Assembly (NCBI GenBank): GCA_024225895.1
Contig: JAAEMC010000566.1
Coordinates: 1 to 10,259 of the forward strand
DNA length: 10,259 nucleotides
Direction: 5' to 3'
DNA from: Desulfobacteraceae bacterium
GTDB taxonomy: Bacteria; Desulfobacterota; Desulfobacteria; Desulfobacterales; Desulfobacteraceae
The translations under genes were made by a program, and so were the position numbers. The notes beneath the pieces were generated by a model that was not told the origin of the DNA, ran no database searches, and saw only the letters and a list, made by a program, of their open reading frames with translations. This document shows, piece after piece, positions 1 through 10,259 of the stretch (position 1 is its first letter; each line of letters begins with the position of its first letter).

Positions 1-262
1 AGCCTCTTTTTATTGTTGCAGCGTTAAATAGAGGTATCTTCAAAAGATGGTAAACTTTTTTTACATTCTCAGTTCAATTAAATAACAATAAACTCAATAG
101 AATATTTGAGTATATTCAAAATTATTAATTGTCAAGTTGTTTATTGGCAAAAACCATATCTATCAAGCGTTTCCACTAAGTTCCAACAACAAATCATATT
201 ATAATTTCAATGGTTTAACCATTTTAACTAAATATTTATTATTTTTCTTGTAAGCAAATATT
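1..262. other. AT-rich intergenic stretch at left edge
   Basis: This stretch is very AT-rich and I see no convincing gene, RNA or terminator in it. Its only clear structure is the palindromic operator-like site listed separately at 205-224. It probably belongs to the upstream control region of putP, or separates it from a gene beyond the left edge. Confidence 0.5.
205..224. promoter_or_regulatory. Palindromic operator-like site O1 (GntR/FadR type)
   Basis: The core AATGGTTTAACCATT (209-223) is a perfect inverted repeat around one central base. The surrounding 20 bases recur at 549-568 with only that central base changed. The pattern TGGT-N3-ACCA fits the TNGT-N3-ACNA operator consensus of the FadR subfamily of GntR regulators (PdhR and LldR sites, for example). 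No such regulator gene is in the window, so the binding protein is inferred. It lies about 490 bp upstream of putP and could act as a distal operator together with O2. Confidence 0.5.
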
Positions 263-514
263 TTACAACACTCTATGATTTTTTCTAAAAAAAGAGAAGC
301 TGTGTCTCCTTCCCGGGCATCTGAGGCTGATTAGCGGTACTGAGACCCGGGAGACCCGCAGGAAAGGTATCTGGTTTTCATCAAGTCCGAAAGGAGACAG
401 AATTTCAACGCTATCGTCAGGGTACACACAAAAAAGGCCTTCCAGGAATTCGGCCGACCAGACCTGGCACATCGGCCCTATCTGGCCGCCCGGCGCTGAA
501 AAATTTGTGATCAT
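263..514 (-). CDS. Doubtful small hypothetical protein, 83 aa
   Basis: This is an open frame of 83 codons reading away from putP, located in a patch that is much GC-richer than its flanks. I do not recognise the product. Residues 1-55 have a protein-like composition and GC-leaning third positions, while the C-terminal part is Arg/Ser/Phe-rich and looks like read-through. The start has AAGGA only 2 bases upstream, too close for a good ribosome-binding site. A second ATG six bases upstream in another frame (minus-strand start near 520) opens only about 35 codons. The patch could be a true small gene, the remnant of a gene divergent to putP, or a non-coding structured region. A CCCGGG-based inverted repeat (311-317 with 346-352) lies inside its 3' half, which favours structure over coding there. 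Confidence 0.25.
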   Translation of the reverse strand: MITNFSAPGGQIGPMCQVWSAEFLEGLFCVYPDDSVEILSPFGLDENQIPFLRVSRVSVPLISLRCPGRRHSFSFFRKNHRVL

Positions 515-535
515 CGTCCTTCATTAAAAAATCTG

Positions 536-604
536 TTGACAAAGCTCTTTTCAATGGTTAAACCATTTCATTTTCAATTCAAAATACTTTAACCATTGAA
601 AAGA
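536..604 (+). promoter_or_regulatory. putP promoter with operator O2 and a 17-bp inverted repeat
   Basis: TTGACA at 536-541 is a perfect -35. The best -10 candidates (TTAAAC 558-563 or TAAACC 559-564) are weak and lie inside the palindrome AATGGTTAAACCATT (553-567), the second copy of the O1 site. A bound repressor there would block RNA polymerase. In addition, 546-562 and 588-604 form a perfect 17-bp inverted repeat with a 25-base spacer, so the O2 half-site is repeated in mirror image. This could be a further operator half-site or, if transcribed, a leader hairpin. The expected regulator is a GntR/FadR-type protein, which is an inference from the operator pattern alone. Confidence 0.5.
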
Positions 605-696
605 AAGGAGAAAACCGCACACCGCATTTGTGTACAGACAAACGGCTCGAACCGGCCGGAAACCGTTAAAATTTAATCAACAAAGGATGGGATGAG

Positions 697-2181
697 ATGA
701 CGTTACTCTATTTGCAATTTGCCCTGTACCTGGCCCTGATGCTGGGTATCGGCTACTACTCCATGGTCATGACAAAAAACAACAAGGACTTTATTATCGG
801 CGGCCGCTCTCTGGGGCCGTTCACCACCGCCATCAGCGCCGGCGCATCCGATATGAGCAGCTGGCTGCTGCTGGGACTGCCCGGGGCTGTTTTTGCCGGC
901 GGCCTGGTGGAAGGGGTCTGGATCTCCCTCGGGTTGATCATGGGGGCCTATATTAACTGGCTGGTGGTTGCGGAACGACTCAGAAGACTGAGCGAGAAAT
1001 TTGACGCCGTGACTCTGCCGACGTTTTTAGCCAACCGGTTCGGCGACGACACAGGCATGCTGAAAATCGTCTCAACAATGGTCATACTCCTCTTTTTCAC
1101 CCTTTATGTCGCATCCGGCCTCAAGGGCGGTACCCTGTTGTTCGCATACACCTTCAACGCATCGGAAAATACGGCTCTTCTCATCACCACCTTTGTAGTG
1201 GTCTCCTACACATTCCTGGGGGGATACATGGCGGTGTGCTGGACCGATCTTGTCCAGGGGCTTCTTATGCTGGGCGCCCTGATTTTCTGTACGATCCTGG
1301 GATATAATGCGATTTCAGGGTCCGGCATTGATATCGCAGCGGTCAATCCCAAGGCGTTCAACTTCTCAACCACCTGGATCACCGGCGCGTCACTTATGGC
1401 CTGGGGGTTCGGCTATTTTGGCCAGCCCCACATCCTGGCCCGGTTCATCGGTATTAAGAGCGCGTCAGACGTTCCCAGTGCCCGGCGTATCGGCATCACC
1501 TGGATGACCATCTGTCTTTTACTGTCCACGGCAATCGGTCTCATCGGCATCGGTTACAACGAGGTTCATGCCCTTGCCGGGGTGGCAGGCGAAGGCGGGA
1601 ACCAGGAACGGATCTTCATGGCTCTGACCAGCACCCTGTTTAACCCCCTGTTTTCCGGCTTTGTCCTGGCTGCCGTGCTGGCCGCGGTTATGTCCACCGC
1701 TGATTCCCAGCTCCTGGTACTCACCTCATCCCTTACCGAAGACCTGCCTTTTTTTGCCGGTATGACCGATAGGCAGAAGGCCTGGGGCAGTAGATTCGGC
1801 GTCGTCGGTTTTGCACTGCTGGCCCTGGTCATTGCCTACAACGATTCCGGTTCCATCCTGGCCATGGTCGGGTATGCCTGGGGCGGGTTCGGTGCAGCCT
1901 TCGGCCCGTTGATGATTTTGTCCCTGTGCTGGCGGGGAACCACCAAAACCGGTGCATTGGCAGGAATGATCGCTGGTGCGGTTTCCATTTATGTAATCAA
2001 AAACTTCATCAGTATCGAGGGAGAATATTTTTACGAGCTTCTGCCCAGCTTCTTTGTTGCCTTTGTCACCATTGTGGCGGTGAGCCTGGCAACGGAAAAA
2101 CCCCCGGAGGCAGTGCTGGAAAAATTTGACGATGCCAACGAAATTAACGAAAAGAAGCACGAAGTGGTTTACCAGGATTGA
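697..2181 (+). CDS. putP: Sodium/proline symporter PutP
   Basis: The product is an inner-membrane solute:sodium symporter (SSS family) that couples L-proline uptake to Na+ entry. The 494 residues are close to the E. coli length of about 500 and are strongly hydrophobic, consistent with about 13 membrane helices. Recognisable PutP signatures are GGRSLGPF (35-42), SAGASDMSSWLL (47-58) with Asp52 and Ser54 equivalent to the Na+-site Asp55 and Ser57 of E. coli, WGFGYFGQPHILARF (236-250), MSTADSQLLV (332-341) with Ser333/Thr334 equivalent to the Na+-ligand Ser340/Thr341, and YAWGGFGAAFGP (393-404). The start is supported by AAAGGA at 682-687, 9 bases upstream. It stands alone on the plus strand, with its own promoter/operator region before it and a hairpin after it. 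No proline dehydrogenase gene (putA) is nearby, so uptake may serve nutrition or osmoprotection. The gene is visibly richer in GC than the genes to its right, hinting at a different history. A related SSS substrate cannot be fully excluded, but the match to PutP is close along the whole length. Confidence 0.93.
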   Translation: MTLLYLQFALYLALMLGIGYYSMVMTKNNKDFIIGGRSLGPFTTAISAGASDMSSWLLLGLPGAVFAGGLVEGVWISLGLIMGAYINWLVVAERLRRLSEKFDAVTLPTFLANRFGDDTGMLKIVSTMVILLFFTLYVASGLKGGTLLFAYTFNASENTALLITTFVVVSYTFLGGYMAVCWTDLVQGLLMLGALIFCTILGYNAISGSGIDIAAVNPKAFNFSTTWITGASLMAWGFGYFGQPHILARFIGIKSASDVPSARRIGITWMTICLLLSTAIGLIGIGYNEVHALAGVAGEGGNQERIFMALTSTLFNPLFSGFVLAAVLAAVMSTADSQLLVLTSSLTEDLPFFAGMTDRQKAWGSRFGVVGFALLALVIAYNDSGSILAMVGYAWGGFGAAFGPLMILSLCWRGTTKTGALAGMIAGAVSIYVIKNFISIEGEYFYELLPSFFVAFVTIVAVSLATEKPPEAVLEKFDDANEINEKKHEVVYQD

Positions 2182-2208
2182 TCGGGTAGACTTTTTCATT
2201 GAAACGAC

Positions 2209-2240
2209 GGGGAGGATCTGCCTGGGATCCTCCCTTATAT
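2209..2240 (+). terminator. Likely terminator after putP
   Basis: A perfect 9-bp GC-rich stem (GGGAGGATC at 2210-2218 with GATCCTCCC at 2226-2234) encloses a 7-base loop and starts 28 bases after the putP stop codon. The following TTATAT is only a poor U-tract, so termination may be partial or rely on the stem alone. Confidence 0.6.
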
Positions 2241-2281
2241 AAAAATACAAGATAATTAAAACAAAGCAAACAAAGGGGTCA

Positions 2282-2327
2282 CAAAAAAACAAAGGGCCTC
2301 ATTTCCAGACAATGAAAGAAAAATGAG
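2282..2327 (-). terminator. Weak terminator candidate downstream of the phzF-like gene
   Basis: On the minus strand a 7-bp AT-rich stem (CTCATTT/AAATGAG, 2321-2327 with 2298-2304) with a 16-base loop is followed, after 8 bases, by a run of seven T (2283-2289). The stem is weak and the gap to the T-run is too long for a textbook terminator, so this is tentative. It lies about 46 bases beyond the stop of the 2374-3168 gene. Confidence 0.28.
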
Positions 2328-2373
2328 ATTCTGAGCTTTGGTGTGAGCCGTTGCATGAAAATAATGTTAGCTT

Positions 2374-3168
2374 TTATACATATATATTTCCAGTGAGGTA
2401 TTTTACGGCATTCCCCCTGATGAGGACGCGGTCTCCCTGGTATTTACAAAACAGATCCCCTCCTCTTGGAGAAGCTTGATGCGCATGAATTTCTTCTTTT
2501 TTAAGCCGATTCGCCCAATACGGCACCAATGCACTGTGAATGGATCCTGTTACAGGATCTTCAGGAATACCATAGCTTGGCGCAAAACACCTGGAAACGC
2601 AGTCAGACTGAATACCTGGTGCAGTAACGATAACGCCATATGGATGGAGTTGTTCCAATAAATAAAGGTCAGGTTCAATCGCTCTAACTTCATCTTCAGT
2701 TGCCAGGATCGCGTAATAATTAGGGTCTGCTTCAACAACAAACACCTCTTGTGGCTGCACTTTCAACCCATTTAACAAGTTCTCCGGCTGTTGTTGACAA
2801 GGCATCATCAGAAAGCTTGGAAAATTCATTTCAAACATGGAGCCTTTTTGCGTTACCTTTAAAGGTCCGCTTTTTGATTCAAATTGAACAGACTGACGTT
2901 CCGGTTCAAGTTCAGTAAAGATGACAAAAGCACAGGCAAGCGTGGCATGTCCGCACAAGGGCACTTCCTGGGTAGGAGTGAACCAGCGGATATGAAATCC
3001 ATCATCTGCTGGTATAAAAAATGCCGTTTCAGCCAGATTATTTTCCTGGGCAATGGCTTGTAACGTTACATCATCAAGCCAGTGTTCAAGAGGACACACT
3101 GCTGCAGGATTTCCATGAAAGATTTTATTTGCAAATGTATCAATTTGATAAATATTTATTTTGTTCAT
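2374..3168 (-). CDS. PhzF-family isomerase/epimerase-like protein
   Basis: The 264-residue product belongs to the PhzF/YddE family (diaminopimelate-epimerase-like fold, cytosolic). Visible family signatures are the N-terminal YQIDTFANKIFHGNPAAV (7-24), ENNLAETAFF (42-51), in which Glu47 matches the catalytic glutamate of PhzF, FTPTQEVPLCGHATLA (63-78) and PSYGIPEDPVTGSIHSA (197-213). Length is normal for the family (about 260-300). PhzF itself isomerises trans-2,3-dihydro-3-hydroxyanthranilate in phenazine synthesis, but no other phenazine genes are present, and most family members have no known substrate, so I do not call it phzF. AAAGG lies 6 bases before the ATG. It is separated from the upstream SDR gene by 181 bp that include a terminator-like hairpin, so it is probably a separate transcription unit. 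Confidence 0.85.
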   Translation of the reverse strand: MNKINIYQIDTFANKIFHGNPAAVCPLEHWLDDVTLQAIAQENNLAETAFFIPADDGFHIRWFTPTQEVPLCGHATLACAFVIFTELEPERQSVQFESKSGPLKVTQKGSMFEMNFPSFLMMPCQQQPENLLNGLKVQPQEVFVVEADPNYYAILATEDEVRAIEPDLYLLEQLHPYGVIVTAPGIQSDCVSRCFAPSYGIPEDPVTGSIHSALVPYWANRLKKEEIHAHQASPRGGDLFCKYQGDRVLIRGNAVKYLTGNIYV

Positions 3169-3250
3169 TTTATGCCTTTGATTTTGTTGTGAAATGACAA
3201 AGCAAAATTTCTTTTAAATCAGCACAACTCGTATTTTTGTGTCCAACATA

Positions 3251-3264
3251 ACAAATTAATTTGT
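3251..3264. promoter_or_regulatory. 14-bp AT-rich palindrome upstream of the PhzF-like gene
   Basis: ACAAATTAATTTGT is a perfect palindrome about 83 bases upstream of the PhzF-like start codon. On the minus strand a TTGACA hexamer (3261-3266) overlaps it, but I find no good -10 at 16-18 bases from it. It may be an operator over a weak promoter. Being AT-only in its core, it could also be chance. Confidence 0.3.
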
Positions 3265-3284
3265 CAAAAAACACATAAATACCG

Positions 3285-3314
3285 TCAAAATAAATAAGGC
3301 TGGTGAATCCAGCA
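3285..3314 (-). terminator. Likely terminator of the five-gene operon
   Basis: On the minus strand GCTGG (3309-3313) pairs with CCAGC (3299-3303) around a 5-base loop and is followed by the T-rich tract CTTATTTATTTT. It sits about 36 bases after the SDR1 stop codon, the expected place for an intrinsic terminator. The stem is short at 5 bp. Confidence 0.5.
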
Positions 3315-3349
3315 TTTGCACGATTTTTTGATGACAAAAAAGAATAAAC

Positions 3350-4159
3350 CTAGGATAATTCTTTTTTAAACCGGTTGGTCATCATTTTTTCATAGAGAAT
3401 GGGTGACAACCGGTGAATATAATATCCGAGCCGGCCCATGAATGTCAGGATCAGGTTGGATTTTTCTTTTTGAAGTCCTTTAACAATCATCTTGGCTGCA
3501 TTTTGAGGTGTATCCTGCTTCCCAATCCGTGTTTGTTCATGGGTGGCAATCTTGCCGTCGGTTCCCAAAGCCCTGGTTTGAAGATTGGTTTTAATAAATC
3601 CCGGTGCGACAATCATCACATGAACGCCTTTGGACCGAAGTTCACACCGAAGGGAGGTAAAAAGGCCGTGCAATGCGTGTTTGCTTGCACTGTATCCTGT
3701 TCTTCCCACCAAAGGTGCGACCCCGGCAATGGATTCATTGACAATGATCACGCCTTTATTTTCGATCAACGAGTCCAAAGCCGCCTTGGTGCAATATAGG
3801 GAACCAAAAAAATTAACATCCATCACTTTTTGGATTACTTCGATTTTGGTTTGGGAAAAAAGTCCTCTCTGGGTAATCCCTGCATTGTTAAAAAGGATAT
3901 CTATCCTGCCAAAATGAGAGAGAACACGATCAATGGCTTTGAAACATTCTGCTTGCCTTGTCACATCGCATTTTACCGCCAGGATCTCAAATTCCTTATC
4001 CTCAAATTCATTTTGGGCAAGCGCCAGGGTCTCGTTATCCATATCCAGCATGGCGACAGCCGCACCATGTTCTGCTAATTCACGGCATACGGCAAGTCCG
4101 ATGCCGCTTGCTCCGCCTGTTACAACAGCAACCTTGCCTTTAAAATTTCTCCTATCCAC
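3350..4159 (-). CDS. Short-chain dehydrogenase/reductase (SDR1), GTG start
   Basis: This is a classical SDR oxidoreductase of 269 residues: an NAD(P)(H)-dependent alcohol/ketone dehydrogenase of unknown substrate. It shows the nucleotide-binding TGGASGIG (14-21), the acid DMDN end of beta-2 (39-42), NNAG (91-94), and the tetrad Asn116, Ser143, Tyr156 and Lys160 (YSASK 156-160), then PG (186-187). Asp39 at the end of beta-2 suggests NAD(H) preference. The C-terminal 35 residues form a hydrophobic/basic tail (LILTFMGRLGYYIHRL) not needed for the SDR core and resembling the tails of DHRS7B-like SDRs; membrane association is possible. The start codon is GTG at 4157-4159, overlapping the last 8 bases of the transporter gene. 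AGGAG at 4169-4173 is 9 bases upstream and lies inside the transporter gene, so the two are probably translationally coupled. It is the last gene of the unit. Confidence 0.88.
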   Translation of the reverse strand: MDRRNFKGKVAVVTGGASGIGLAVCRELAEHGAAVAMLDMDNETLALAQNEFEDKEFEILAVKCDVTRQAECFKAIDRVLSHFGRIDILFNNAGITQRGLFSQTKIEVIQKVMDVNFFGSLYCTKAALDSLIENKGVIIVNESIAGVAPLVGRTGYSASKHALHGLFTSLRCELRSKGVHVMIVAPGFIKTNLQTRALGTDGKIATHEQTRIGKQDTPQNAAKMIVKGLQKEKSNLILTFMGRLGYYIHRLSPILYEKMMTNRFKKELS

Positions 4160-5078
4160 TGATTAATTCTCCTGCAGGAAGCTGCCTTCGAGTAAAAATA
4201 AAAGCCGTGATCAAACCGCCGATAATATGCCAGATTCCCCACCAGGCAACCAGTACAGCCATGCCGCCCAACCCGTCAAAAAAATTAAAGACAAGCACCA
4301 GTCCCAAAGCAGAGTTTTGAATACCCACCTCAATGCTGACCGCACGGCAATCTCTTTCCGGTAATTTTGCCATTTTCCCGGACCAGTATCCAATATTCAG
4401 TGCAAGGGCATTGTGGATTAAAACCCCAAAGACCACCAGGCCCACATAGGTTAAAAAATTCTGCCAATTGGCTGCTAAAGCCCCTGCCACTATCACTATA
4501 AAAAAGATCAAAGAAAAAATTTTAAAAGGTTTTCGAATCTTATCAGCTAAAGCAGGCAAGAAATGGCCAATGGCCATGCCCACGGTTAACGGAATACCCA
4601 GGATGATAAAAACCGTGATAAATACGTCCATGGGATTTAAGCTGACCTGCTTTAATATTTGGGCCGTGTCCGGATGTAAGCTGCCCCAAAATGAAATATT
4701 GAAGGGAGTCATAAAAATTGCTGCCAGAGTGGATACAGCCGTCATGCTTATGGATACGGCACAATTTCCCTTGGCAAGATAGGTCATAATATTGGAAAGG
4801 TTTCCTCCCGGGCAGGCTGCCACCAGCATCATGCCCAGGGCAATGGAGGGATAGGGTTTTAAAATCAAAATTAAAAGAAAGGTAAAGGCCGGCAGGAGAA
4901 TAAATTGAGCTAAAAGCCCTATTAAAGGTGCTTTGGGGCTGGCAATAATCCGCTTGAAATCCTCAATTTTCAGTTCAAGAGCCACACCGAGCATCATCAG
5001 GCCGATGGCACCGTTGATAATGGCGATTCCGGTCCGGTTAAAATTCAGGTTGACCTGGTCAATCATTACAGCATCCAT
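4152..5078 (-). CDS. Bile acid:Na+ symporter (BASS)-family transporter
   Basis: This is an integral inner-membrane protein of 308 residues with about 9-10 hydrophobic helices, of the BASS family (TC 2.A.28; ASBT/NTCP fold). Family hallmarks are CPGGNLSNIMTYLAKGN (89-105) in the core-domain crossover helix and SIEVGIQNSALG (248-259), in which Glu250 and Gln254 match the Na+-site Glu260 and Gln264 of the Neisseria ASBT homologue. Bacterial BASS proteins move organic anions such as bile acids, pantoate/2-oxopantoate (PanS), pyruvate and other 2-oxo acids (plant BASS2 and BASS5). Its place directly after a ThDP enzyme makes a 2-oxo or hydroxy acid an attractive cargo, but this is inference. The ATG at 5076-5078 has AGGAG 8 bases upstream. 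It lies 24 bases behind the ThDP gene and overlaps SDR1 by 8 bases, so it is within one operon. Confidence 0.88.
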   Translation of the reverse strand: MDAVMIDQVNLNFNRTGIAIINGAIGLMMLGVALELKIEDFKRIIASPKAPLIGLLAQFILLPAFTFLLILILKPYPSIALGMMLVAACPGGNLSNIMTYLAKGNCAVSISMTAVSTLAAIFMTPFNISFWGSLHPDTAQILKQVSLNPMDVFITVFIILGIPLTVGMAIGHFLPALADKIRKPFKIFSLIFFIVIVAGALAANWQNFLTYVGLVVFGVLIHNALALNIGYWSGKMAKLPERDCRAVSIEVGIQNSALGLVLVFNFFDGLGGMAVLVAWWGIWHIIGGLITAFIFTRRQLPAGELISG

Positions 5079-5102
5079 AATCTATTCTCCTGTTGGAAAG
5101 TT

Positions 5103-6797
5103 TTAAGCCTTGTATGCTCCGATGTTTGCCAGAGCCGTACTGCCCGGGCTGATGGTTGTCGGATCGGTCATTACATTGATACAGCAGACCTTGTTTGAAG
5201 CAAAAGCAGCTTCAAGGGCAGGTTTCACATCCTTGGCCTCTTCCACAAAAAATCCTTTCCCGCCAATGGCTTCCACCATTTTATGATAATCCACCCGGCC
5301 GATATAGGTCCCGTCCTCAATGGCATGTCCGATGCGAAGTTCCTGGCTGTGGCGGATCATGCCCCAGCCCAGATCATTGGAAATCACCACTACAATTGGC
5401 AATCCTTTTCTGATAGCAGTTTCAAACTCCATGAAATTAAAGCCCACTGATCCATCACCTGTTACCAGCACAACCCGGCTTTGAGGATTTAATAATTTAG
5501 CTGTATTGGCATAGGGGATTCCAACAGCAAGAGAACCGAATATCCCGTAATCCAGGTATCGTCCCGGTGTAACCACTGTCCGGGTCATGCCCATCCAGGT
5601 GGTTGTATCCCCTCCGTCCGCAACCACAATATCATTTTCTTTGTCCATGAACTGGTCGACTTCCCTGGTCAGACGCATTGGATGAATAGGGACGTTGTCT
5701 GTTGTCCAGTCATTTTCAGATAATGCTTTTCCATCTGTATGAGCCTGCTTGATCTTATCCATCCATGGGGTAAATTTTTGATTTAACGTCTCTTTTAAAT
5801 TATAGTCTGCCAGCTGTTGGTTACATGCTTTTAAAAATCCTTTGATATCACTAAGCACGGGTAAGTCTACGCTGCGGTTACGGCCGATTTCCTCGGGTGC
5901 AATATCAACCTGGACCAGTTTGGCAGAAGGATTAAAAATATCTCCGAAAAGATAATACAAGGACAAACGGGTTCCTAAAATGATGATCAAATCTGTTTCA
6001 AGATAGGCGGCAAAACTACCGCCGGGCCTGATGGCAATTGCTCCTTCAAAGCATTGGGGATGATTATCTGATACAACACCCCGGCCTGAAAGAGAAGTGA
6101 ACAAAGGAATATTTGTTTCTTCGATAAAGGTTTGCAGTTCAGCCTCGGCATTGGATTGCCATGCACCTGTTCCGGCAATGACAATCGGATTTTGGGCATC
6201 TTGGATCATCTTGATCAGGGCCGCAGCCTTGTCCGGATCTCCCGGGTGGGATATGACTCGGGTATTTGTGGTTCTGACATCATCCTGATTGACTGGTGCA
6301 TTTAAAATATCAATGGGAAATTCCAGGTATACCGGACTGGGACGACCGGATTCAGCAATCCTGAAGGCCATATCCACATATTCTTTGGCCCGCTCGGCCT
6401 TGGAACAGACCAGGGCCTTTTTCACCATGGGTTTGATCACATCAGCCTGGGGCATGTCCTGAAGATCCAGTCTTTCTTTATTGTCAAACCCCACACATCC
6501 TGCGATTAAAACCAGTGGAGTATTGGAAAAGTGGGCACTGGCAACACCGGTCAGGGCATTGGTAAACCCGGGACCTGCCGTAACCATGGCCACCCCTGCC
6601 GTTCTTGTCATTTTCCCGTAAGCCTCCGCCATAAAGACAGCTGACTGCTCATGGCGGGTATCAAAAATTTTAACCCCTGTGTTTTCAAGGTGCTGGTAGA
6701 TGGGCGTAATATGCCCGCCGCTCAATGAAAAAATAGTTTCAACCTTTTGATCTATTAAGGCCTGGGCTGCCAGTTGCGCACCGGTAATCGTTTCCAT
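5103..6797 (-). CDS. ThDP-dependent enzyme, acetolactate synthase/2-hydroxyacyl-CoA lyase superfamily
   Basis: This is a cytosolic thiamine-diphosphate enzyme of 564 residues with the standard three domains: N-terminal PYR (about 1-170), central (about 190-330) and C-terminal PP (about 370-540). The activating glutamate is Glu50 in the RHEQSAVFMAEAYG motif (48-61). The ThDP/Mg2+ motif begins GDGS (447-450) and ends SNDLGWG (473-479), the usual GDG...ND spacing. SGGHITPIY (26-34) takes the place of the GGA/GIP loop of relatives. Such enzymes decarboxylate 2-oxo acids or make and cleave acyloins and 2-hydroxyacyl-CoAs. The sequence looks closest to the uncharacterised ALS/HACL-like branch. I see no reason to call it a biosynthetic acetolactate synthase: no regulatory subunit (ilvN/ilvH) or ilvC is nearby. 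Xsc (sulfoacetaldehyde acetyltransferase) motifs are absent. AAAGGAG is 5 bases before the ATG and the gene starts 18 bases after the SDR2 stop, so it is co-transcribed. The substrate is unknown. Confidence 0.87.
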   Translation of the reverse strand: METITGAQLAAQALIDQKVETIFSLSGGHITPIYQHLENTGVKIFDTRHEQSAVFMAEAYGKMTRTAGVAMVTAGPGFTNALTGVASAHFSNTPLVLIAGCVGFDNKERLDLQDMPQADVIKPMVKKALVCSKAERAKEYVDMAFRIAESGRPSPVYLEFPIDILNAPVNQDDVRTTNTRVISHPGDPDKAAALIKMIQDAQNPIVIAGTGAWQSNAEAELQTFIEETNIPLFTSLSGRGVVSDNHPQCFEGAIAIRPGGSFAAYLETDLIIILGTRLSLYYLFGDIFNPSAKLVQVDIAPEEIGRNRSVDLPVLSDIKGFLKACNQQLADYNLKETLNQKFTPWMDKIKQAHTDGKALSENDWTTDNVPIHPMRLTREVDQFMDKENDIVVADGGDTTTWMGMTRTVVTPGRYLDYGIFGSLAVGIPYANTAKLLNPQSRVVLVTGDGSVGFNFMEFETAIRKGLPIVVVISNDLGWGMIRHSQELRIGHAIEDGTYIGRVDYHKMVEAIGGKGFFVEEAKDVKPALEAAFASNKVCCINVMTDPTTISPGSTALANIGAYKA

Positions 6798-6815
6798 ATC
6801 TACTCCTTTAAAAAA

Positions 6816-7652
6816 TTATAATTCCATTAATTGTCCGCCGCAGATGTTTAAAGCCTGGCCCGTTATGTATGAGGAAGCGTCTGACGCCAGGAAGGCTGCA
6901 AGATCCGCAACTTCTTTGGGCGAGCCAATTCTTCCCATGGGAATGGATTCACACATCTTTTTTTCCTGCTCTTCCACGCTTGTATTTAAAAACTGGGCTT
7001 CCAGGCCGAACCGCCATTTTTCAAGATCGGTCATAATCTGTCCGGGGCAGATGGCATTTACCTTAATCTTTAAACCGGCAAGCTCCTTTGCCATGACTTT
7101 GGTCATCATAATCACCCCGGCTTTTGATACAGCATAGGCTCCATTGAAAAGAGGCGGTACCTTGCCGGCCCTTGACGCCGTATTAATAATACTGCCGCCT
7201 TTTTCGACCATCAAAGGAACAATGGCTTTGGATACACGGAAAACACCATGAAGGTTGACATCAATGGTTTTCATCCACGCATCATCATCATAGGTGTGAA
7301 TACCGTTGGGAACGCCAAAGCTGGCGCCGGCATTGTTGCAGAGGATATCAATGCGCTCAAACGTATCCTTTACGGTTTCTGTCATCTTTTGAACTATAGT
7401 ATTATCTGTAACATCCAGATTTACGGCCAGGGTTTTAACATTGTACGTTTGCGCAAGTTCATTTTGGATCTGTTCCATTTCGTCAGTTGTACTGACAGCT
7501 ACATCCGTCTTTAAATCTTTGGCATTTCCAAAGTCGGCAATAATAATATTGCAAGCGCAGGAAGCAAATTTTTCAGCAATGGCATAGCCAATGCCTGATT
7601 TTTTCCCCGATCCTGTGATCAGGGCGGTTTTTCCTTTTAAATCAGCATTCAT
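6816..7652 (-). CDS. Short-chain dehydrogenase/reductase (SDR2)
   Basis: This is a classical SDR of 278 residues, an NAD(P)(H)-dependent oxidoreductase of unknown substrate. The glycine motif is TGSGKKSGIG (13-22), two residues longer than the common TGxxxGIG. NNAG is at 106-109, and the catalytic tetrad is Asn133, Ser160, Tyr173 and Lys177 (YAVSK 173-177), with PG at 203-204. The C-terminal SSYITGQALNICGGQLM (260-276) is the standard SDR ending, so the protein is complete. A roughly 20-residue insert after beta-2 (about 42-60) is unusual. It differs clearly from SDR1, which points to a distinct reaction and not a recent duplication. AAAGGAAA is centred about 8-10 bases before the ATG. It follows tetR by 29 bases and precedes the ThDP gene by 18, so it is the first enzyme gene of the operon. 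Confidence 0.9.
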   Translation of the reverse strand: MNADLKGKTALITGSGKKSGIGYAIAEKFASCACNIIIADFGNAKDLKTDVAVSTTDEMEQIQNELAQTYNVKTLAVNLDVTDNTIVQKMTETVKDTFERIDILCNNAGASFGVPNGIHTYDDDAWMKTIDVNLHGVFRVSKAIVPLMVEKGGSIINTASRAGKVPPLFNGAYAVSKAGVIMMTKVMAKELAGLKIKVNAICPGQIMTDLEKWRFGLEAQFLNTSVEEQEKKMCESIPMGRIGSPKEVADLAAFLASDASSYITGQALNICGGQLMEL

Positions 7653-7681
7653 TTTCTTTTCCTTTACCTGATGTTTTCAGT

Positions 7682-8299
7682 TTATTTTAAACTTTTAATT
7701 AATTTTTCAATACTGTATTCATAAATGTCTTTATGCGTCTGGGAAGCAAGGATGGTATTTTCAAACTTTTTAAATTGCATGAGGCCATAAAGAGAACCAA
7801 AAAAGAGAATTGCAAATTTTCCGGCATCCTCTTTTTCAAAAATATTTTCTTTAATTCCCTGGCAAACAACCTCTTCGATCAGAGCCGTTATCTTTTTACC
7901 GGACATATCGACTTTGGTTTTCAATTCCGGTTCAAAAAATATTTTAGGCGAGGATAAAAAGTAATTAATAATATCGTAATAGTCGTTATGATCTTCGCAG
8001 AATTGATAAAAAGACCGGCCAATCAATCTGAGTTTTTCATCGCTTCTTATCTTTTTCTTATGAATGGTTTCCAGCCGTGAATACAAGAGCGCTACACCTT
8101 CCATCTGCAAGGCAATAAAAATTTCATGTTTGCTTTTGAAATAAAAATAGATGGTGCCGATGCCAAGTTCCGCATGTTTGGCAATTTTGTTCATGGAGAT
8201 ATTGTCGATGCCGGATGAGAACAGAAGATTGCGGGCAGCATCCAGGATTTGATTTTGCCGGAGTTGCTTTTCCATGGCACGTCTTTCCCTGGTTCCCAT
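7682..8299 (-). CDS. TetR-family transcriptional regulator
   Basis: This is a 205-residue DNA-binding repressor of the TetR type. The N-terminal helix-turn-helix covers about residues 33-60 (NISMNKIAKHAELGIGTIYFYFKSK), with the recognition helix around GIGTIYFYF (46-54), the most conserved TetR signature. The remaining 140 residues are helical and variable, as expected for the ligand-binding/dimerisation domain; its effector cannot be read from sequence. AAAGGAGG (8303-8310) is only 3 bases before this ATG, a short spacing. Met9 (8273-8275) is an alternative start that would still leave the HTH whole. The gene leads the operon and has operator-like palindromes immediately upstream, so it probably represses itself and the four genes behind it, relieved by a pathway metabolite. 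Confidence 0.9.
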   Translation of the reverse strand: MGTRERRAMEKQLRQNQILDAARNLLFSSGIDNISMNKIAKHAELGIGTIYFYFKSKHEIFIALQMEGVALLYSRLETIHKKKIRSDEKLRLIGRSFYQFCEDHNDYYDIINYFLSSPKIFFEPELKTKVDMSGKKITALIEEVVCQGIKENIFEKEDAGKFAILFFGSLYGLMQFKKFENTILASQTHKDIYEYSIEKLIKSLK

Positions 8300-8366
8300 A
8301 TGCCTCCTTTTTATTCGTTCTGTTTTCTTAAGCCGGGTTTCAAGCGGCTGAAGAAAAAATGAATAC

Positions 8367-8385
8367 GATGATGATTATCATTCAT
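8367..8385 (-). promoter_or_regulatory. Fur-box-like site upstream of tetR
   Basis: The minus-strand 19-mer ATGAATGATAATCATCATC matches the classical 19-bp Fur box at 15 positions, including 12 in a row (AATGATAATCAT). It contains the palindrome ATGAT-T-ATCAT (8371-8381 on plus). It lies between the predicted promoter and the tetR start. The larger repeat AAATGAAT (8357-8364)/ATTCATTT (8380-8387) overlaps it, so a TetR-type operator is the alternative reading. Confidence 0.45.
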
Positions 8386-8390
8386 TTGTC

Positions 8391-8438
8391 GAACATCGTT
8401 CTATTTTTGATATATATTCTACAAAACACTGAAGTCAA
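8391..8438 (-). promoter_or_regulatory. Promoter and putative TetR operator of the operon
   Basis: On the minus strand TTGACT (8433-8438) is followed after 16 bases by TATATA (8411-8416), or after 18 bases by TATATC (8409-8414), giving a good sigma-70 promoter with transcription starting near 8403. Directly downstream, at 8391-8401, is the palindrome GAAC-N3-GTTC, well placed for a repressor to block initiation. Part of it recurs upstream and downstream in the motif AAAYAGAAC (see findings). The TetR protein encoded by the next gene is the natural candidate ligand. Confidence 0.5.
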
Positions 8439-8439
8439 G

Positions 8440-8716
8440 GATTAATATTTTTTCTTTTCATGTATTGTTCTATTTATATTGATTCGCAAAATTGCATTCC
8501 AATTCAAATCCATTCAATTGTGACAATGATGGTTGGAGTATGAATCAATCTGGATAAAACCCAATGTCTGATGCAAGGATACCTCTGTGTGCCCTCCCTT
8601 CTCAGAGCGGCATAAATATTAAGTTGGGCGCACACAGGCATGCTCCAAATTTTAAGATTTAATTCAGAGCGCACCTGTACAAAATTAAAAAAAGAAGAGT
8701 GCTTTATAATGAATGG
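8440..8716. other. Intergenic region with imperfect repeats, no gene seen
   Basis: No convincing reading frame lies here. The left part is AT-rich. At 8585-8594 and 8628-8637 the arms CTGTGTGCCC and GCGCACACAG can pair imperfectly (7 bp plus extensions) around a loop of roughly 35 bases, and CAGAGCG occurs twice (8603-8609 and 8665-8671), each time close to a GC-rich block. A T-rich tract on the minus strand (8681-8696) follows the sulfurylase/kinase stop codon but lacks a clear stem directly before it. This could be a structured 3' region of that mRNA or a decayed element. Confidence 0.35.
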
Positions 8717-10259
8717 CTAAATAAACCCTTGTTGGCCGATGAGCAGTAGTATTTGCTGGGCAGCTTCATCAGGGGTTATGGCAGTGGTGTCAATTCGCAG
8801 TTCAGGTTTTGCAGGATCTTCATATGGATCATCCACACCGGTAAATCCTTTTAAAAGCCCTGCCCTGGCTTTGGCATACATACCTTTTCTGTCCCGCTGC
8901 TCACATTCTTTGATAGGGGTGGAGACATGAATTTCAAAAAAACCGCCATAGGTTTCTATGGCATTTCTTATTTCCGACCTGGTTTTGGTATACGGCGCAA
9001 TAGGGGCACAGATTGCTATACCTCGGTTTTTTGTAATTTCAGCCGCAACATACCCGATTCGCCGGACATTGATATCCCTGTGTTCTTTTGAAAAATTAAG
9101 TTCACTGGATAAATTCCGCCTGACAATATCGCCGTCAAGTAATGAGACCGGTCTTTTACCGATTTCCATAAACCTTGAATACAAAACTTTTGCAATGGTG
9201 GATTTGCCTGCCCCTGAAAGGCCGGTTAAAAAAATGGTAAATCCTTTGGCACTGGGAGGTGGATATGAATTTTGCAATTCCTGAATTACTTCAGGAAAAG
9301 AAGCCCACTGGGGTACGTTTTTTCCTTTTAATATGCGGTCCTGTATATGGGAGCCTGAAAAAGATATGGTTTCAGCCTCTTTGGGAACCTTGGCTGCTGT
9401 CCTGTATTCATCTTCAAAGGGCAGGTAAACCATCTCCTCAAATGAAACCACACCCACACCCAATTGCTTTTGAAGCGATTTGGTGACCCGTGTGGACTCG
9501 TCATAAGGATAAAAAGGTTTATTATTGTTATTATTATTTCCCGGGCTTGCATGATCGTGGCCAATTATAAAATGAGTACACCCAAAGTTTTTACCTATAA
9601 TCATGTGCAAAACAGCATCCCTTGGTCCTGCCATGCGCATGGCAAGGGGCAGCAGATTAAATAAAAAAGTATTGGGTGGATAATAGGATTCCACTTTTTT
9701 ATAGCAGCGCATCCGTGTGTAATGGTCAAAATCCCCGGGTCTTGTCACACCTGCAATGGGCAAAAGCAAAAGATTGGCCTTGGCTTTTCGCATGGCTTCA
9801 ATGGTCATCTCAAACTGGGGCCGGTGCAAAGGATGCCTTGTCTGGAATCCGACAATTTTTTTCCAGCCAAATTTTTGAAATGTTTGTCTGATTTCCAGGG
9901 GCGTCTTTCTTATCTGAATAAAATCTGAGTGAATAGGCAGATTTAAGGCTTGAATTTCGCCTCCGATATAATACGAACCAGATTTATTAAAAAGATAATC
10001 AACTCCCGGATGGTGTTGATCTGTGGTGCCATAGACTTGAAGGGCTTCTTTTTCCATATCAACGGGCCAGATATCTTCTACATTCAGAACACCTAATAAA
10101 AATCCCTCCTGATCCCTCAATGAAACAGACTGCCCTGTTTCAAGAGAAGCGGCAAAATTTTCACTTACATCCAGGCACACGGGAGAAGGCCAGAGAACAC
10201 CCAATTCCAATACCATCCGGTCCAGGCAGGACTCATAGTCAATCTGCTTCATAAACCCT
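8717..10259 (-). CDS. Bifunctional ATP sulfurylase/APS kinase, 5' end outside the window
   Basis: The protein activates sulfate: ATP sulfurylase makes APS, then APS kinase makes PAPS. Numbering from the internal Met at 10250-10252, the sulfurylase part spans about 1-325, with WPSPVCLDVSE (21-31), QTRHPLHRPQFE (137-148) and GHDHASPG (231-238). The kinase part spans 337-511, with P-loop GLSGAGKST (344-352), LLDGD (371-375), NVRRIGYVA (395-403), CAPIAPYTKTR (415-425) and FTGVDDPYEDP (470-480). The frame stays open to the edge: the two codons before that Met read Gly-Phe, completing the GFM motif that sulfurylases have about 60 residues after their start, so the true start lies outside. Oddities are Gln146 in place of the second His of the HxxH motif, His232 in place of Arg in GRDHA, a six-Asn run, and Ala419 at the usual phospho-Ser of APS kinase (as I recall, not rare in fused forms). 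It is far from tetR (417 bp), so separately transcribed. The job is probably PAPS for assimilation or sulfation. Confidence 0.9.
   Translation of the reverse strand, partial: GFMKQIDYESCLDRMVLELGVLWPSPVCLDVSENFAASLETGQSVSLRDQEGFLLGVLNVEDIWPVDMEKEALQVYGTTDQHHPGVDYLFNKSGSYYIGGEIQALNLPIHSDFIQIRKTPLEIRQTFQKFGWKKIVGFQTRHPLHRPQFEMTIEAMRKAKANLLLLPIAGVTRPGDFDHYTRMRCYKKVESYYPPNTFLFNLLPLAMRMAGPRDAVLHMIIGKNFGCTHFIIGHDHASPGNNNNNNKPFYPYDESTRVTKSLQKQLGVGVVSFEEMVYLPFEDEYRTAAKVPKEAETISFSGSHIQDRILKGKNVPQWASFPEVIQELQNSYPPPSAKGFTIFLTGLSGAGKSTIAKVLYSRFMEIGKRPVSLLDGDIVRRNLSSELNFSKEHRDINVRRIGYVAAEITKNRGIAICAPIAPYTKTRSEIRNAIETYGGFFEIHVSTPIKECEQRDRKGMYAKARAGLLKGFTGVDDPYEDPAKPELRIDTTAITPDEAAQQILLLIGQQGFI
9521..9538 (-). 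repeat. AAT trinucleotide tract encoding six Asn
   Basis: Six AAT/AAC codons in a row (five AAT, one AAC) encode Asn239-Asn244 directly after the GHDHASPG motif of the ATP sulfurylase domain. The tract is a small microsatellite that could change length in steps of one residue without breaking the frame. Confidence 0.8.

Follow-up and report, generated by a model that had tools for sequence, protein, structure and literature searches.

A conserved five-gene operon of a Desulfobacteraceae bacterium, encoding a benzaldehyde-lyase-like thiamine diphosphate enzyme, is probably linked to organosulfonate catabolism

The window analyzed here is a complete contig of 10,259 nucleotides from a Desulfobacteraceae bacterium (GCA_024225895.1, contig JAAEMC010000566.1, positions 1-10259; C566 in our numbering), part of a 4.6 Mb assembly of 1184 contigs that is 81% complete. 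Its minus strand carries an operon, tetR-SDR1-ThDP1-BASS-SDR2, that encodes a TetR-family regulator, two short-chain dehydrogenases (SDRs), a thiamine diphosphate (ThDP) enzyme and an anion transporter, and that the initial annotation had described as an unassigned catabolic or biosynthetic unit. The operon is probably tied to sulfonate metabolism. As a more tentative reading, which we prefer to the alternatives weighed below, the operon under its local TetR-family regulator would degrade an organosulfonate, 2,3-dihydroxypropane-1-sulfonate (DHPS), through acyloin-type cleavage to sulfoacetaldehyde, which is then passed to sulfoacetaldehyde acetyltransferase (Xsc). Of this reading, the substrate and the lyase step are what we infer.

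The five genes form a real operon. According to the open reading frame (ORF) calls, the intergenic distances are 29, 18 and 24 bases, followed by an 8-base overlap, exactly as first annotated, and Pfam agreed with the annotation on all five families, each of which exceeded its gathering cut-off. In the order of transcription, the minus-strand genes are tetR (7682-8299; PF00440, E = 7.3e-14), SDR1 (6816-7652; PF13561, adh_short_C2, E = 2.2e-56), ThDP1 (5103-6797; a three-domain ThDP enzyme by Pfam, benzaldehyde-lyase-like as described below), the gene for a sodium-coupled BASS-family anion transporter (4152-5078; PF01758, SBF, E = 2.8e-38) and SDR2 (3350-4159; GTG start; PF00106, E = 1.1e-56; NF004825, 297 bits against a cut-off of 215). 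A hairpin scan placed a terminator-like hairpin with a T-rich tail 3′ of SDR2 (3299-3313, minus strand), where a hairpin had been noted initially. This feature is supported by its position, because hairpins in the window overall (17 found) did not exceed the expectation from shuffled sequences (12.8 ± 4.1).

In a protein search with ThDP1, 7999 candidates were scored, of which 2322 were homologues at E ≤ 1e-60. The best 120 of the 2322, apart from the protein itself, were 71-80% identical over 99-100% of the length, and the homologues named by organism among the matches listed came mostly from Desulfobacterales or Deltaproteobacteria. In a genome scan with one genome per species, 432 relatives were confirmed and the best 80 loci (L033-L112; 60-79% identical) were kept; all counts out of 80 refer to these best 80 of 432 loci, many of which are truncated by contig ends. 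SDR1 was the steady partner of ThDP1: 74 of the 80 loci encode it on the same strand with an identity of at least 45%, and in 68 it lies immediately upstream of ThDP1, with a median gap of 68 bases. Opposite-strand matches of 36% in L077 and L098 were excluded from the 74, and in four loci (L056, L057, L065 and L093) no SDR1 was present in the DNA covered. The other tblastn counts were BASS 52, TetR 49 (at 36% identity or more), SDR2 43, Xsc 23, zinc-type alcohol dehydrogenase (Zn-ADH) 15, MFS transporter 15, acetate kinase (AckA) 12, DASS transporter 6 and aldehyde:ferredoxin oxidoreductase (AFOR) 5. Of the 80 loci, 30 have the order SDR1-ThDP1-BASS-SDR2 on one strand, and 9 have all five genes in order. 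Because the order recurs in this way, a chance arrangement is excluded, and the lack of conservation that the initial annotation had named as one possible refutation was not what we observed. When the count was restricted to the 28 loci flanked by 5 kb or more in both directions, SDR1 was present in 27, a carrier in 25, a second dehydrogenase in 23, TetR in 20 and Xsc in 10. A few genes were broken, by pseudogene formation or by assembly errors: ThDP1 has an internal TAG in L046/L010 (genome G044) and is split in two in L120 (G066), as is xsc in L111.

Xsc was the second ThDP gene in the 23 loci that contain it, always on the strand of ThDP1 and no more than 3.8 kb away. Five copies tested (L048, L055, L082, L104 and L106) scored 736-845 bits, all passing the TIGR03457 equivalog cut-off of 676, and the other 18 were assigned by at least 70% tblastn identity to the query Xsc proteins. 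The position of xsc varied, being after SDR2 in some lineages, after SDR1-tetR in others and upstream of SDR1 in the L104-type loci of Smithella and Syntrophaceae. The cultured Desulfatibacillum alkenivorans DSM 16219 (L090) encodes SDR1-ThDP1-BASS-SDR2 together with a homologue of xsc. Acetate kinase was nearby in the 12 loci counted above, and its L060 copy passes TIGR00016. In L104, genes for DsrK and DsrP, both above their NCBIfam cut-offs, lie upstream of xsc-SDR1-ThDP1-MFS-ZnADH-tetR; homologues of both with companion genes, recognized without NCBIfam scoring, also stand beside the operon in L064 (on the opposite strand), L105 and L111. Because Xsc, acetate kinase and the Dsr genes point to catabolism, the catabolic half of the first proposal stands and a biosynthetic role is unlikely. 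In L063, a pyridoxal-phosphate (PLP) decarboxylase gene and a second conserved gene lie between xsc and ThDP1, and L104 also contains a pyridine nucleotide-disulphide oxidoreductase with a rhodanese domain. AFOR was found near the operon in L085, L086, L099, L101 and L110, none of them with xsc, and is perhaps an alternative sink that oxidizes formaldehyde or sulfoacetaldehyde. A 32% AFOR relative is found beside ackA and xsc in L131, from a genome without a ThDP1 orthologue (G074).

In the genome under study, Xsc is encoded on contig C298 (889.6 bits, passing the TIGR03457 cut-off), in a module xsc-aminotransferase-ald-gntR-ackA separate from the window's contig. The alanine dehydrogenase, the GntR-type regulator and the acetate kinase were recognized from their translations, and the best model for the aminotransferase was NF005812 (473.5 bits, just under the cut-off of 488). 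We take this arrangement to be one known for taurine dissimilation. A physical connection of the two modules was seen in G027, a single-contig genome of 97% completeness, in which the window's five genes keep their order and face xsc-aminotransferase-ald tail to tail across 83 bases, the latter genes being 84-89% identical to the copies on C298. Among 98 related genomes, ThDP1 was present at 60% identity or more in 19 (three from partial or split matches) and Xsc scored over the cut-off in 22. Both were found in 14, ThDP1 only in 5, Xsc only in 8 and neither in 71 (Fisher p = 7e-8); after collapsing to genera, the counts were 7, 3, 6 and 37 (p = 9e-4), with shared ancestry otherwise uncorrected.

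Upstream of tetR, a palindromic operator-like sequence, TAGAACGATGTTCGA, was found at 8389-8403, overlapping the region of the promoter, with a counterpart before tetR in 13 loci. It is preceded on the minus strand by a -35-like hexamer, TTGACT (8433-8438), and a -10-like hexamer, TATATA (8411-8416), the latter recognized by eye from its sequence and the 16-base spacing. All 14 TetR-first regions have TTGAC ahead of the operator, as do the 16 contexts compared, in two of which its distance to the operator is shorter. A simple promoter scan listed no minus-strand site before tetR. Nevertheless, the promoter placed before the first gene in the initial annotation is supported, because the 5′ regions of the window and of the 13 tetR-first loci compared share TTGAC(A/T), an AT-rich -10 region and the palindrome.

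To describe the operator, a matrix was built from the 14 sites (consensus TCGAACGACGTTCGA) and scanned over 1,121,164 bases comprising the window, the xsc contig C298 and the 80 loci. At 12 bits or more, 37 matches were obtained, distributed over the window and 33 of the 80 loci, and 23 of these matches are outside the training set. All 37 precede tetR, SDR1 or ThDP1 by at most 223 bases, and no match falls inside a labelled gene. The remaining 47 loci gave no match at this threshold, and 14 matches arose in a single mononucleotide-shuffled version of the scanned DNA. In the 4.6 Mb assembly, the sole match to the pattern TMGAAYRNYRTTCKA is the site at 8389-8403, and the reversed control gave zero. 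Ten relatives were searched with the same pattern: five had exactly one match and five none, and four of the five sites are beside ThDP1, the site in G044 being on another contig. The reversed control pattern matched once in each of three of the ten. This predicted operator is thus dedicated to the operon, a feature the first description had not foreseen, and the palindrome is presumably bound by the TetR protein as a candidate site. In L060 and L063, the operator precedes both SDR1-tetR-xsc and ThDP1-BASS-SDR2-ackA, suggesting that xsc and ThDP1 share one regulator there.

In the tree of the ThDP superfamily, ThDP1 and its relatives formed a clade of their own, nearest to benzaldehyde lyase (BAL; support 87/91) and outside the acetolactate synthases, a placement among which would have counted against the initial annotation. 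Its scores were far under the cut-offs for acetolactate synthase (TIGR00118, 313.7 bits against 538), 2-hydroxyacyl-CoA lyase (HACL; NF058623, 346 against 600) and oxalyl-CoA decarboxylase (OXC; TIGR03254, 274 against 739). At the position equivalent to Glu510 of Xsc, ThDP1 has Ile481, and the four Xsc rows form a separate clade (100/100). Identities of ThDP1 as acetolactate synthase, Xsc, HACL or OXC were rejected by these cut-offs, residues and the tree, and ComDE was rejected as well; judged from its sequence, ThDP1 is not an acetolactate synthase. The cofactor-activating Glu50, and also Gln113, are present in 42 of 42 aligned relatives, window ThDP1 included. All 36 sequences of at least 60% identity have His29; it is shared with BAL and is missing from all 16 other reference rows (ALS-group, Xsc, GCL, PoxB, OXC and TbHACS). 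In enzymes of the BAL type, this histidine presumably lies next to the substrate hydroxyl.

Of the substrate classes proposed at first for the ThDP enzyme, 2-hydroxyacyl-CoAs are disfavoured because of the BAL-type His29 and the missed HACL and OXC cut-offs, acyloins are favoured, and 2-oxo acids are kept as a rival. Two 49% paralogues (L115 and L116) have Ser for His29 and Thr for Ile481, with no SDR1 or xsc match in 14-18 kb, and probably catalyze a different reaction. Relatives of 38% identity that retain His29 lie downstream of a weakly similar Zn-ADH (L023/L133 and L024/L134), perhaps representing a wider family of paired dehydrogenases and BAL-like enzymes. PDB entries 8y7r and 8y7s were considered as a deposit from the pathway and dropped; 8y7s is a Herbiconiux benzaldehyde lyase mutant, and a search with the codes returned unrelated papers only.

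Tyr173 and Lys177 of SDR1 are invariant across 15 sequences, and the protein is probably a diol (or 2-hydroxy acid) dehydrogenase. SDR2 and Zn-ADH were never found together in the 80 loci and occupy the same operon slot, and therefore look mutually substitutable. The nearest solved chains of Zn-ADH, after an uncharacterized one, include threonine, butanediol, ketose and sorbitol dehydrogenases, and relatives of this polyol/butanediol type suggest a diol substrate. The carriers varied similarly: BASS was the sole carrier in 48 loci, MFS in 14 and DASS in 1, while 5 loci combine DASS with BASS or MFS and 12 have no carrier. The window BASS reaches 132 bits with Pfam SBF (gathering 24.3), scores 202.9 bits against the cut-off of 326.3 for NCBIfam TIGR00841, and resembles the pantoate/ketopantoate carrier PanS while staying under the PanS cut-off. 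Across the loci, the places of the second dehydrogenase and of the transporter are filled by exchangeable modules, a point absent from the initial annotation. In a plasmid tblastn search with SDR1 and ThDP1 as queries, the matches listed were only generic homologues of at most 39.7% identity.

Based on these observations, the following pathway is proposed. BASS would import a small sulfonate, most likely DHPS, which is the simplest vicinal-diol sulfonate and probably the substrate. SDR1, together with SDR2 or a Zn-ADH, would oxidize one hydroxyl of DHPS, SDR2 serving the other enantiomer or a partner redox step, and the product would be the acyloin 3-hydroxy-2-oxopropanesulfonate or the isomeric hydroxyaldehyde 3-sulfolactaldehyde. 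The ylide of ThDP1 would then add to the carbonyl, with His29 as base, and the C-C bond would be broken as in benzaldehyde lyase, giving sulfoacetaldehyde and a one-carbon unit at the formaldehyde level; we infer that retro-benzoin cleavage of either the 2-oxo or the aldehyde isomer would yield these products. Xsc from contig C298 would convert sulfoacetaldehyde to acetyl phosphate and sulfite, acetate kinase would yield ATP, and the sulfite could serve as electron acceptor. The assignment of ThDP1 as an acyloin lyase releasing sulfoacetaldehyde is proposed because of its BAL-like residues and the polyol/butanediol-type relatives of the Zn-ADH that replaces SDR2. That ThDP1 makes sulfoacetaldehyde is strongly suggested, because the adjoining taurine-type branch in G027 also ends there. 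The scheme of import, oxidation, ThDP cleavage and a redox step thus agrees with the logic first put forward; its link to Xsc and sulfite metabolism had not been anticipated.

Several results weigh against this pathway. No xsc was present in the covered DNA of 57 of the 80 loci, and among the 28 loci flanked by 5 kb or more in both directions, only 10 contain it. Five of the 19 ThDP1 genomes (G017, G039, G061, G077 and G083) have no Xsc over the cut-off, G039 and G077 being less than 90% complete; in such lineages, sulfite might in principle be released by ThDP1 itself, from the same Breslow intermediate. Contig C298 gave no operator match in the matrix scan, and therefore the two modules are probably regulated separately in this genome. 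No DsrA over the cut-off was found in the 81%-complete assembly. The BAL branch is very long (3.17) and its placement was flagged as unsure, the fold ranking gave near ties in Z among BAL, OXC, HACS, GCL and AHAS and thus no discrimination, and L022, a relative of 39-41% identity outside the alignment of 42, has His at 113 and lacks both His29 and Gln113. Among solved structures, the best relatives of SDR1 are for the most part reductases of the FabG type and carry little substrate information. The DHPS dehydrogenase HpsO (8WWF) is absent from the best 60 of 535 solved chains for SDR1 and likewise from the best 60 for SDR2 and for the SDR1 profile, and HpsP (8WWD) ranks 17 of 129 for the Zn-ADH profile. 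Orthology of SDR1 with HpsO and of Zn-ADH with HpsP is therefore unsupported by rank in the solved-structure lists, and the DHPS assignment rests on pathway logic for this reason. Among 82 unlabelled neighbour ORFs (E ≤ 1e-10), no family, whether of one-carbon, sugar or other metabolism, exceeded 3 of 82, and no formaldehyde-handling family recurred; serine hydroxymethyltransferase occurred in 2, as did a nitrite/sulphite reductase domain.

The main rival, which we consider unlikely, is a sulfolactate route, in which SDR1 and SDR2 would oxidize (R)- and (S)-sulfolactate to sulfopyruvate and ThDP1 would be a new single-chain sulfopyruvate decarboxylase replacing ComDE, again followed by Xsc. 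The end product and the Xsc link would be identical. The ComDE beta model TIGR03846 was over its cut-off in 2 of the 98 genomes and in none of the 19 with ThDP1, so that a replacement would be needed, and the best match in the present genome (contig C691, 64 bits) is under the cut-off; this absence fits the sulfolactate route as well as the DHPS pathway. The resemblance of BASS to PanS and the presence of DASS, a dianion-carrying family, in place of or beside BASS or MFS in 6 loci also agree with such a substrate. Against it, the BAL-type His29 is present, Gln113 stands where pyruvate, indolepyruvate and phenylpyruvate decarboxylases have His, and the Zn-ADH that replaces SDR2 is like polyol rather than 2-hydroxyacid dehydrogenases. 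The Gln113 argument is not decisive, because AHAS, POX and GCL also decarboxylate with Gln.

Three further explanations were considered for ThDP1 and its neighbours. The enzyme might act on another sulfonated acyloin, such as a larger sulfo-ketose, or ligate sulfoacetaldehyde with a second aldehyde, the dehydrogenases then acting on the product. Chain length is not fixed by the Xsc link, and we take ThDP acyloin lyases such as BAL and formolase to be reversible and promiscuous; the importers, Xsc, AckA and Dsr genes nevertheless indicate degradation, and the neighbour ORFs gave no sugar-metabolism family above the 3 of 82 mentioned, making this explanation improbable. Slightly less probable again is the catabolism of a sulfur-free acyloin or 2-oxo acid, with xsc nearby through incidental clustering of catabolic genes. 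This would account for the 57 loci and 5 genomes without Xsc and for the generic nature of the dehydrogenase homologues, but not for the same-strand linkage to xsc across different arrangements and lineages, the operator common to both units in L060 and L063, or the co-occurrence at the genome level. That ThDP1 is simply an acetolactate synthase or 2-hydroxyacyl-CoA lyase of the ordinary kind, its neighbours being unrelated, is highly improbable: some sources do name homologues "acetolactate synthase large subunit", but the scores are far under the ALS, HACL and OXC cut-offs, the clade is separate, and the operon and its operator are conserved.

The operon's neighbours in the window are putP (697-2181; passing TIGR02121), a PhzF-family gene (2374-3168) and a gene for bifunctional sulfate adenylyltransferase/adenosine phosphosulfate (APS) kinase (Sat; 8717-10252; passing NF004040), the last with a run of six Asn residues (GNNNNNNK). 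Sat/APS kinase also adjoins the operon in three Desulfotignum loci (L035, L037 and L049). Upstream of putP, two near-identical palindromes, AATGGTTTAACCATT (209-223) and AATGGTTAAACCATT (553-567), resemble an operator pair by eye, and a GC-rich inverted repeat (TCCCGGG...CCCGGGA) flanked by AT-rich DNA lies at 300-480 without an Rfam match; over the whole window, nothing reached an Rfam gathering score. Upstream of the operon in other genomes, we observed CoA-transferase subunits with SufB/SufC-like genes (L078, L081 and L086) and, in L055 (2897-6353), class II aldolase-like, AAA and CoxE-like VWA genes before SDR1-tetR-xsc. Ten hand-picked neighbour ORFs (aldolase II, AAA, CoxE-like VWA, HGD-D, HpaB and others) showed no pattern, and the neighbour g356 is YchF, unrelated to the pathway.

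The abstract of PMC11382572 describes DHPS and sulfolactate as organosulfur compounds of environmental importance, and PMC11887813, whose main text gave no match to six sulfonate terms, names Desulfobacteraceae as a key family of marine sediments. In the open full-text literature of PubMed Central (PMC), judged by title and abstract start among the matches listed, with subscription journals and preprints outside the scope, neither this gene set nor a ThDP lyase forming sulfoacetaldehyde was described, and the portions seen of these matches gave no account of how Desulfobacteraceae might use DHPS or sulfolactate. It is possible, though we hold this with some doubt, that the operon represents an undescribed anaerobic pathway of C3-sulfonate (DHPS) degradation in Desulfobacterota, in which a BAL-like ThDP enzyme, rather than a sulfolyase or a radical enzyme, splits off the terminal carbon as formaldehyde and delivers sulfoacetaldehyde to Xsc. 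If true, it would be a C-C-cleaving, formaldehyde-yielding entry into sulfoacetaldehyde metabolism and would provide a marker gene for sulfonate use in sulfate reducers and syntrophs. The sulfonate link also makes an orphan ThDP family, labelled acetolactate synthase by some sources, directly testable.

Compared with known systems, the operon would be a variant of organosulfonate catabolism rather than a system of a new kind. In the Roseovarius-type sulfolactate/DHPS route with ComDE and Xsc, as outlined in parts of PMC11382572 and PMC6278857, a C3 sulfonate is likewise oxidized and converted to sulfoacetaldehyde, from which Xsc forms acetyl phosphate and sulfite. Unlike in that route, ComDE beta is not over the cut-off in the 19 ThDP1 genomes, the window operon has no histidinol-dehydrogenase-like (HpsN-type) gene, the ThDP enzyme consists of one BAL-like chain with three domains, and the hosts are mostly Desulfobacterota. 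In known DHPS clusters, HpsO, HpsP and the MFS transporter HpsU come from the families to which SDR1, Zn-ADH and MFS here belong (sections of PMC11382572), and Roseobacter HpsO and HpsP act on opposite enantiomers, oxidizing the C3 hydroxyl to sulfolactaldehyde (sections of PMC11131964). The hpsNOPU cluster of Cupriavidus and Roseobacteraceae thus combines a PF13561 SDR, a PF08240/PF00107 Zn-ADH and an MFS carrier, as do L104-type loci, whereas the window has two SDRs and BASS, a ThDP enzyme in place of HpsN, and an SDR1 without a close sequence match to HpsO among the solved chains listed. The anaerobic DHPS routes described in the portions consulted of PMC13327070, PMC12890257, PMC11905757, PMC6278857, PMC11382572 and PMC11131964, namely DhpA-SlaB-SuyAB of Desulfovibrio DF1 and the glycyl-radical enzymes HpsG and HpfG, share the anaerobic use of a C3 sulfonate and, for DhpA-SlaB-SuyAB and HpsG, sulfite as acceptor. 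In those routes, C-S cleavage or dehydration takes place on the C3 skeleton, whereas here the C-C bond would be cleaved first and the C-S bond by Xsc. With benzaldehyde lyase and formolase, ThDP1 shares length, domains, fold, Glu50, His29 and Gln113; it differs in an identity of about 30%, in Ile at the position of BAL Thr481 and in its linkage to sulfonate genes. Finally, the taurine module xsc-aminotransferase-ald-ackA, of which xsc-aminotransferase-ald stands beside the five genes in G027, would be joined at sulfoacetaldehyde, the window operon with its own regulator and operator forming a separate entry branch.

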